Source: Collinsella ihumii
Lineage (GTDB): Bacteria; Actinomycetota; Coriobacteriia; Coriobacteriales; Coriobacteriaceae
DNA: 64,000 nt
Direction: 5' to 3'
Assembly: GCF_900046475.1 (NCBI RefSeq)
Contig: NZ_FCOU01000005.1
Coordinates: 62,001-126,000, forward strand
The notes under the pieces were generated by a model. It did not search any database, had not been told where the DNA came from, and saw only the letters and a program-made list of their open reading frames with translations. Shown here piece by piece: positions 8,482 through 63,058 of this stretch (within the stretch, counting starts at the first letter, position 1; the number at the start of each line of letters is the position of its first letter). A program made the position numbers and the translations under genes.

Positions 8482-8494
8482 GCAAACTTTTGGG

Positions 8495-8570
8495 CTTTTG
8501 GGGACAGTCCCTTTTTGTTAACGGCGGCGCAGCTGCGCCGCCGTTAACAAAAAGGGACTGTCCCCAAAAG
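8495..8570. repeat. 76-bp perfect loop-less palindrome, TTTGGGGACAG family
   Basis: The 38 bases 8495-8532 are the exact reverse complement of 8533-8570, with no central loop. From the outside inward each arm carries CTTTTGGGGACAG, TCCCTTTTTG, TTAAC and a GC-rich centre. It lies after citC and just before the promoter of the next gene. A TTTTTG run in each arm would let it act as a transcription terminator in either direction. Its size, perfection and the shared border with 9729-9812 and 62971-63058 suggest a mobile repetitive palindrome. Confidence 0.85.
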
Positions 8571-8582
8571 TTCGCCCCCAGC

Positions 8583-9728: not shown

Positions 9729-9812
9729 GGGGCGAATTTTTGGGGACAGTCCCTTTTTATTCACGGCGGCGCCGCCGTGAATAAAAAGGGACTGTCCCCA
9801 AAAATTCGCCCC
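9729..9812. repeat. 84-bp perfect loop-less palindrome, TTTGGGGACAG family
   Basis: Bases 9729-9770 are the exact reverse complement of 9771-9812. Each arm reads GGGGCGAA, TTTTTGGGGACAG, TCCCTTTTTA, TTCA and CGGCGGC inward. It fills nearly all of the space between two convergent genes (stop at 9724, stop at 9820), so bidirectional termination is the natural role. The border is shared with 8495-8570, but the innermost part is different. Confidence 0.85.
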
Positions 9813-17985: not shown

Positions 17986-18043
17986 AACTCAGAAAAACTC
18001 AGAATTCTGAGTTGTATGTCAGAATTCTGAGTTTTTCTGAGTT
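17986..18043. repeat. Perfect 25-bp inverted repeat with internal palindromes
   Basis: Bases 17986-18010 are the exact reverse complement of 18019-18043, with the 8-base loop GTTGTATG. Each arm contains the motif CTCAG repeatedly, and ACTCAGAATTCTGAGT (17997-18012) is itself a full palindrome. It lies directly after the terminator of the ABC operon and upstream of prfA. Its AT-rich sequence differs from the GC-rich terminators nearby. It could be a pair of operator sites or a short mobile palindrome. Confidence 0.7.
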
Positions 18044-21120: not shown

Positions 21121-21362
21121 GATGGTTTCCCTTCCAAAAGTTTTTGTCTATGACCCCTTCCGTGCAACGCAACCGGAGGGGACCCATTCCCCTCCCCCTT
21201 GCAACTTAATGCGAGAAAGTTACGCGCACAATGTGGCAGGATACCGCGGGCGTATGCAGAAAACCACCCCATTTTGCAAGGAAACATGCACGTAACTCAA
21301 TTATGGGCCGAAAACTGAAGGCTTGGCCCCGTCTTGCCACCCGAAAACCGGCCGCGCCCGCC

Positions 21363-30767: not shown

Positions 30768-30920
30768 GCCTGGCGTCGCGACGGTTTTTGCGGGAAGGCG
30801 CCGCGGGTGCATATCGGGGACGTACCTTCCGCATGCACTTTTGCATGCTGGGGACACCCCTTCGGCGCGCACGCTCGCGCGAGCCCCTCGAGGTGCCGGG
30901 ACATGCCCCATGAACCCGCG

Positions 30921-36451: not shown

Positions 36452-36507
36452 GCGGGGCCGGTACGTTTTGGACGGGGTCATCCCCGTCCAAAACGTACCG
36501 GCCCCGC
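36452..36507. terminator. 26-bp perfect hairpin between convergent genes
   Basis: Bases 36452-36477 are the exact reverse complement of 36482-36507, with the 4-base loop TCAT. The arm begins GCGGGGCCGGTACGTTTTGG. It fills the gap between the kup stop and the nitroreductase stop, so it can terminate both. It is far longer than a terminator needs to be and resembles the other perfect palindromes of the window in style, though not in border sequence. Confidence 0.75.
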
Positions 36508-51723: not shown

Positions 51724-51757
51724 CATGCAATTTTGGGGACAGTCCCTAAAATTGCAT
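51724..51757. repeat. Short palindrome with the GGGGACAG core
   Basis: CATGCAATTTT (51724-51734) and AAAATTGCATG (51747-51757) are exact complements around GGGGACAGTCCCT, with a single mismatch in the inner part. The core is the same as in the perfect palindromes at 8495, 9729 and 62971. It overlaps the -35 region of the SRP RNA gene and lies 14 bp after the tadA stop. Confidence 0.65.
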
Positions 51758-51771
51758 GCAGGCCCCTGTGT

Positions 51772-53563: not shown

Positions 53564-53602
53564 AAAAGCGCCCTATCCCCACGGTGGGGATAGGGCGCTT
53601 TT
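53564..53602. terminator. Bidirectional intrinsic terminator
   Basis: An 18-bp perfect stem (53564-53581 with 53585-53602) is flanked by A-runs on the left and T-runs on the right, so it works in both directions. It lies between the convergent TRIC and typA genes. Confidence 0.9.
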
Positions 53603-62970: not shown

Positions 62971-63058
62971 CCCGGATGGGTCCTTTGGGGACAGGTGCGT
63001 TTTTGTCGACGGCATGCCGTCGACAAAAACGCACCTGTCCCCAAAGGACCCATCCGGG
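62971..63058. repeat. 88-bp perfect loop-less palindrome, TTTGGGGACAG family
   Basis: Bases 62971-63014 are the exact reverse complement of 63015-63058. The arm reads CCCGGATGGGTC, CTTTGGGGACAG, GTGCGTTTTTG, TCGACGGCAT inward. It lies between the convergent acetyltransferase and partial gene. Of the three big palindromes it has the most diverged inner part but the same TTTGGGGACAG and TTTTTG segments. Confidence 0.85.

Follow-up and report, generated by a model that had tools for sequence, protein, structure and literature searches.

A palindrome of 76 bp without loop or mismatch, lying between citC and an AbrB-like gene of Collinsella ihumii, raises the question of what such an element is and how it came to be spread and kept. 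The initial annotation had claimed perfect loop-less palindromes at three places in the window, by which we mean the whole 64,000-nt stretch of DNA that was analyzed, and had read them as one family with a shared border, a T-run and a variable interior, possibly spread by a RAYT. All three palindromes were borne out, with 100% complementary arms and zero loop, and the window also contains the half-site TTTGGGGACAG in a single hairpin:

8495..8570, no strand assigned: doublet 1, a perfect palindrome without a loop, located between citC and the AbrB-like gene
9729..9812, no strand assigned: doublet 2, a perfect palindrome flanked by two convergent ORFs
62971..63058, no strand assigned: doublet 3, a perfect palindrome of the variant whose core is followed by GGTG, flanked by two convergent ORFs
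51724..51758, + strand: single, undoubled REP-like hairpin with TTTGGGGACAG at 51732-51742, which folds alone (-13.9 kcal/mol, z -6.0)

The arms measure 38 nt in doublet 1 (8495-8532/8533-8570), 42 nt in doublet 2 if written without overlap (84 bp in total) and 44 nt in doublet 3 (62971-63014/63015-63058, 88 bp). As single-stranded DNA, each doublet folds into one long hairpin, at -51.1 kcal/mol for doublet 1 (8485-8580, z -13.9), -53.6 kcal/mol for doublet 2 (z -17.2) and -61 kcal/mol for doublet 3 (z -16.7). The half-units alone folded no better than shuffled sequences (z -0.15, 0.05 and 0.27). TTTGGGGACAG occurs in both arms of all three, at 8497-8507 (+) and 8558-8568 (-), at 9739-9749 (+) and 9792-9802 (-), and at 62984-62994 (+) and 63035-63045 (-), with the T-run after the core present as described. 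When up to one mismatch was allowed, the window had eight matches to TTTGGGGACAG against 0.55 expected, and six of these were the doublets, one per arm. When 64-kb sequences were simulated 100 times under a first-order Markov model, the longest loop-less arm was 12 nt, compared with the 44 nt observed. The palindromes are thus far longer than chance allows in the window, but long perfect palindromes turned out not to be rare in the genus, which qualifies the view that they are unusual. Pfam identifies the neighbors as citC (PF08218), a member of the AbrB family (PF05145), a cytidylate-kinase-like gene and a GNAT gene; one more neighboring ORF had no Pfam match. Long perfect inverted repeats lacking TTTGGGGACAG are found elsewhere in the window, at 36452-36507, 53564-53602 and 17986-18043.

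The predicted family of dispersed inverted doublets was recovered from the C. ihumii genome (2.84 Mb, a 35-contig draft). Exact TTTGGGGACAG borders define 11 doublets, which hold 22 of the 24 exact half-sites in the genome; the reversed control gave one. A search with a 20-nt half-site at up to three mismatches yielded 29 matches (control, 0), which resolve into 13 doublets and 3 singles. Together with the two GGTG doublets of the exact-border set, these 13, which have a TCCC core, bring the total to at least 15 doublets. Six of the 13 deviate from the pattern, and in five of these six both halves deviate identically. The core GGGGACAG fits the motif GGGGWSAS, and three more doublets carry AGGGACAG in both halves. 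In the 11 exact-border copies, pairing runs 0-29 nt beyond TTTGGGGACAG in sequence that is partly copy-specific. Since the arms pair outside it, TTTGGGGACAG is a conserved core and not the outer edge of the arms: it is shared as proposed, although "border" does not describe it.

To compare the arms, we aligned 12 of the 15 doublets, leaving out two shorter copies and one that is 1 base longer. In this alignment, 98.6% of 516 cells were paired. Fourteen of the 43 pair positions were invariant and four varied on one side only, so that 25 of the 29 varying positions showed double changes. By cell, 72 were altered on both sides, 8 on one side, and 7 were unpaired, although the aligned copies are kin and the cells are not independent events. 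None of 500 shuffles scored as high, and slid structures were paired at 37-47%. Within columns 9-42 (408 cells), we counted 42 both-sided changes, 2 one-sided changes and no unpaired cell. The nine copies of equal length gave a similar picture, with 98.2% of 387 cells paired and double changes in 21 of 24 varying pairs. The interior does vary among copies, but the variation is compensated pair by pair. The initial annotation had taken covarying arms as a sign against mobility. They fit both mobility and selection on structure; as they are seen here among dispersed copies, covariation does not separate a mobile repeat from a fixed terminator. These paired-arm sequences form a natural set with which to study how long perfect palindromes, often regarded as unstable, persist in bacteria.

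The same comparison bears on whether near-palindromes could have been collapsed into perfect ones during assembly. The draft state of the genome would leave room for this, as would a contig of one congener (G035) that ends inside a palindrome. Yet the copies differ from one another while their own arms match, which makes an artefact highly improbable; in addition, mismatches persist in several copies, and 25 of the 113 matches listed from records outside the genus have fully paired inner arms.

We next turn to the other species of the genus. A pattern search (gap 28-58) found no doublet with exact TTTGGGGACAG borders in the 42 other species. The half-site was enriched in G019 (52 copies), G015 (13), G026 and G029 (8 each) and G014 (7), with 0-2 copies in controls. 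The initial annotation had expected of a fixed terminator that palindromes would sit at identical sites in all relatives; instead, none of the 8 other loci surrounding the AbrB-like gene contains TTTGGGGACAG, and neither does any of the 29 other loci compared around the gene adjoining doublet 3, a gene present in 42 of 42 other genomes. Some of these places hold different palindromes. Another long palindrome lies behind the AbrB-like gene in G040 and G041, and the G035 contig ends inside what is apparently the same one; in G019 and G029, different palindromes again precede this gene. G041 and G040 also part ways at another intergenic site, where their palindromes belong to two different families. 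In sampled stretches of six other species, we found 3-6 inverted repeats each that scored at least 16, which are raw finder counts. Their arms reached 28-78 nt in G040, G041, G036 and G019 and only 16-23 nt in G039 and G029, and not all of these repeats come from REP-like families. Among them is a 158-bp near-perfect palindrome in G019 (L231, 18647-18804) with 78-nt arms and two mismatches, which is apparently composed of two distinct REP-like units, one after the other.

The positions of the doublets suggest a different explanation, namely that they are bidirectional terminators or stabilizers of mRNA 3' ends, with pairing kept by selection on the RNA and spread being secondary. By a crude choice of ORFs, eight of the 11 exact-border copies are no more than 40 nt away from a predicted ORF's 3' end, and doublets 2 and 3 take up nearly all the space between their convergent ORFs, so that another terminator would hardly fit. 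Doublets 1 and 2 each contain, on both strands, a sub-hairpin, GGGGACAGTCCCT, that is followed by TTTT; these account for 4 of the 10 terminator-like sites of the stretch scanned, where 1.8 are expected. In G019, the site of doublet 3 is occupied by an ordinary hairpin and a T-run. However, the sub-hairpin has only 5 pairs and is absent from the two GGTG copies and from a second repeat family described below, and the long stem has the opposite order to an intrinsic terminator, with a T-run before it and an A-run after it whichever strand is read. The palindromes had no match in an Rfam search at the gathering threshold, and this explanation does not account for dispersal, restriction to one species or pairing of the whole arm. 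We consider it unlikely as the primary role of the doublets; termination as a side function is possible.

If the doublets are mobile, a RAYT-like enzyme might be flanked by the same motif, as the initial annotation had suggested checking. PF01797 was found in 37 of the 43 genomes of the genus, and not all of these matches are RAYT-like. The flank scan covered 33 loci, ten of which had no ORF by the HUH pattern and one of which (L061) repeats another (L013), giving 22 distinct ORFs, of which those at L030, L033 and L037 may be wrong. Eleven of the 22 RAYT-like ORFs were spanned by an inverted repeat that scored 15 or higher and carried a GGGAC core in one or both arms, a count that scores the gene resident in C. 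ihumii as unflanked (its left copies are ~750 bp off) and omits the GGGGACGG copies on both sides in L030. In G019, the RAYT-like gene has TTTGGGGACAG twice on each side in inverted orientation. At L043 2003-3422, this gene is enclosed by a 166-nt inverted repeat (99%) with tRNA-Ala on both sides, plus REP units, and the G019 repeat unit folds alone (z -3.0). The C. ihumii genome itself has two PF01797 matches: the shorter has no HUH ORF by pattern, and the other is a RAYT-like ORF of 332 codons, the resident gene. No TTTGGGGACAG half-site was found at up to two mismatches in the 3.3-kb loci around either match, so the arrangement of inverted TTTGGGGACAG repeats on both sides of a RAYT-like gene is seen in G019 but not in C. 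ihumii.

The resident and G019 proteins align through the C-terminus at 37% identity. Both score above the cut-off for PF01797 and below the curated cut-off for NF047646 REP_Tyr_transpos, at 49.1 and 53.5 of 80 bits, respectively. The G019 protein had weak matches to HTH_38, HTH_23 and HTH_28, all below cut-off, and the resident protein had none at E <=1. A PDB sequence search with the resident protein returned no match. The enzyme class is probably TnpA_Y1 subclass 2.1, going by the portion of Quentin et al. 2018 (PMC6006769) available to us.

What surrounds the resident gene is a different repeat, GCAAATYGGGGACGYACC, which also has one half-site in the window:

L061 5230-5310 and 6995-7060, contig C9 of the C. 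ihumii genome: GCAAATYGGGGACGYACC flanks of the resident gene
30809..30826, + strand: half-site of the GCAAATYGGGGACGYACC family, single copy in the window (GCAWAYCGGGGACGTACC; 1 match, 0 mismatches, 0.20 expected)

Two tandem copies of GCAAATYGGGGACGYACC lie on each side of the gene, inverted, and one copy ends in T. At up to three mismatches, the genome has 122 matches (control, 5), many of which, among those listed, are inverted doublets 44 nt apart. From 20 doublet-like places, we compared the 16 with equal core length and left out one out-of-register row (L011). Eight of 30 pairs vary and all eight show double changes; the 480 cells include 27 both-sided changes, 1 one-sided change and 4 mispairs. 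The GGGGACGY sequence of this family misfits GGGGWSAS at position 7. Since GCAAATYGGGGACGYACC flanks the resident gene and forms covarying doublets, it represents a REPIN-like family belonging to the resident enzyme, and TTTGGGGACAG represents another of like design without a resident partner. No enzyme in the C. ihumii genome is tied to TTTGGGGACAG, because the resident gene carries the different family on both sides. The proposal that a RAYT spreads the family is therefore upheld in part: sister-species RAYT-like genes are flanked by a core of the same type, and by TTTGGGGACAG itself in G019, but the resident gene is not.

These flanks also bear on a further possibility, that the doublets are miniature elements (MITEs) of another, classical transposase. 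Inverted termini and a lack of coding capacity would suit a MITE, but the core matches TIRYT repeats and the same motif flanks the Y1 gene in G019, which leaves this origin quite improbable.

Already known, as far as the available excerpts of the papers go, are TIRYT repeats, which have a GGGGWSAS motif, form inverted repeats around RAYT-like Y1 transposases and are often dimers (Di Nocera et al. 2013, PMC3733652), and REPINs, which are inverted REP doublets whose two arms show compensatory changes (Bertels and Rainey 2011, PMC3116915). The TTTGGGGACAG family resembles the TIRs/TIRtrons of the former in its GGGGWSAS core, in its dispersed copies that are often dimers and in the inverted repeats around the sister-species RAYT-like gene. 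It differs from their description in those excerpts in being an orphan, in the nearly perfect pairing of whole arms and in three half-units that form no hairpin beyond chance. With REPINs, it shares an extragenic location, compensatory arm changes, two inverted half-units that form one long hairpin, and dispersal in many copies (at least 15 doublets). In contrast to the REPINs of the excerpt, it has another core, its RAYT-like subgroup is not that of the paper's enzymes, and pairing extends past the conserved core. It also lacks a half that is its own REP hairpin and a unit flanking a RAYT gene in the same genome. Because the half-units in the window fold no better than shuffled and the whole doublet arm pairs instead, we do not count the TTTGGGGACAG doublets as REPINs in the strict sense.

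Taken together, we favor, with a probability of roughly 70%, the reading that the palindrome is a copy of a REPIN-like non-autonomous repeat, the presumed substrate of a TIRYT/RAYT-like Y1 (HUH) transposase, belonging to a family that is an orphan in this genome. Its observed base consists of the doublets, their dispersal, the absence of exact-border copies from congeners, the covarying arms and the GGGAC-core flanks of sister RAYT-like genes; counting against it, the half-units of the window palindromes form no hairpin of their own beyond chance, unlike REP units. Two half-units with a GGGGACAG core, set head to head, can form a single long hairpin when the DNA is single-stranded, on which a Y1 (HUH) transposase of the TIRYT/RAYT-like subgroup may act in trans. 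Going by the anatomy of the doublets and by published RAYT/TIRYT work, a TIRYT would recognize single strands with the GGGGACAG core and move them as doublets, and we infer that TTTGGGGACAG doublets were mobilized by such an enzyme. Candidate single-stranded substrates for a TIRYT or the resident enzyme are TTTGGGGACAG or its GGGGACAG core, and GGGGACGTACC. The doublets would land, or be tolerated, mostly behind genes. The orphan status of TTTGGGGACAG could mean that the enzyme was lost, that it lies in an unassembled part of the genome or that the resident gene acts outside its own family. Between movements, the arms may change together, with one arm copied from the other while hairpinned, as in quasi-palindrome template switching.

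Template-switch mutation at quasi-palindromes makes imperfect inverted-repeat arms more alike (PMC7202029, PMC3820800), and would yield the arm matching that the covariation calls for; in the excerpts of these papers, it is a mutation process of E. coli and yeast, so that upkeep of the doublets by it can only be suggested. We prefer hairpin-templated copying as the likely source of arm matching, with selection for hairpin function as the alternative. In its strongest form, copying would turn the doublets into self-correcting palindromes: a mutated arm would prompt a hairpin-templated rewrite of the other, and the sequence would drift while each copy stayed a near-perfect mirror. This idea is tentative and, on balance, doubtful. 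If it were true, many families with a GGGGAC core, in several phyla, would be subject to self-correction, possibly including the outer flanks, and long perfect palindromes would be a lasting trait of a bacterial genus and not a fragile accident.

Orthologous palindromes speak to this choice. Among 15 palindromes of a G041 contig, eight could be projected to G040 and one gave a clean orthologue (G041 L222 8404-8509, with 52-nt arms; G040 L221 6034-6133, with 49-nt arms). It has 45 aligned pairs with three both-sided and no one-sided changes, the arms are matched within each species and the center is common to both. Because the two copies differ at three pairs, always in both arms, arms can change together in place, and this orthologue is a test case for template copying versus selection. 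The orthologue at 300872 (G041/G040) has one both-sided and three one-sided changes, and the orthologous pair at G040C12:101339 keeps uncompensated mismatches in both species. The one-sided differences in other orthologous pairs count against template copying. Of the eight projected palindromes, the six besides the clean orthologue and the one at 300872 belonged to different families or were rearranged, degenerate or misaligned. Terminators served as a yardstick, but 17 hairpins, six with a usable orthologue, gave eight both-sided and eight one-sided changes and did not discriminate.

Outside the genus, the exact pattern occurs at 110 or more loci. The 80 of these loci listed by name come from Clostridia, Atopobiaceae/Olsenella, Acidobacteria, Gammaproteobacteria, Saprospiraceae, Planctomycetota and others, a non-random sample. 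Among the 113 matches in the 110 loci listed, inner arms were at least 90% paired in 47, including the 25 fully paired, and less than 50% paired in 16; because of these 16, the pattern gathers non-palindromes too. A TIRYT-like ORF was found near the match in 1 of 116 loci listed (110 from genomes and 6 viral), and had no GGGGACAG within 800 bp, so that these loci lend no support to a link with such enzymes outside the genus. The six viral contig matches are one sequence in both orientations with 20 of 32 positions pairing, and we rejected them as copies of this element.

In open-licence PMC, a search for Collinsella with repetitive extragenic palindromes led to PMC8040213 and PMC7771070, whose retrieved portions do not describe these elements; the former reports 250 candidate RNAs from microbiomes that are palindromic, of which 230 resemble terminators. 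Searches there for RAYT with Collinsella, for GGGGACAG as a palindrome and for CTGTCCCC with transposase returned no literature that we recognized as related, going by the excerpts displayed, and in that of PMC4853749 the letters occur only in a primer. As far as these searches go, three things are new: the repeat families of this genus, the orphan state of TTTGGGGACAG, and the pairing of whole arms to near perfection. They add to the range of TIRYT-type repeats, which have been little studied, a genus in which 43 species were sampled and several families coexist. Apart from the palindromes, the window contains a match to Corio-PBP RNA, a coriobacterial RNA family in Rfam and thus in keeping with a coriobacterium, at 21156-21229 on the - strand.
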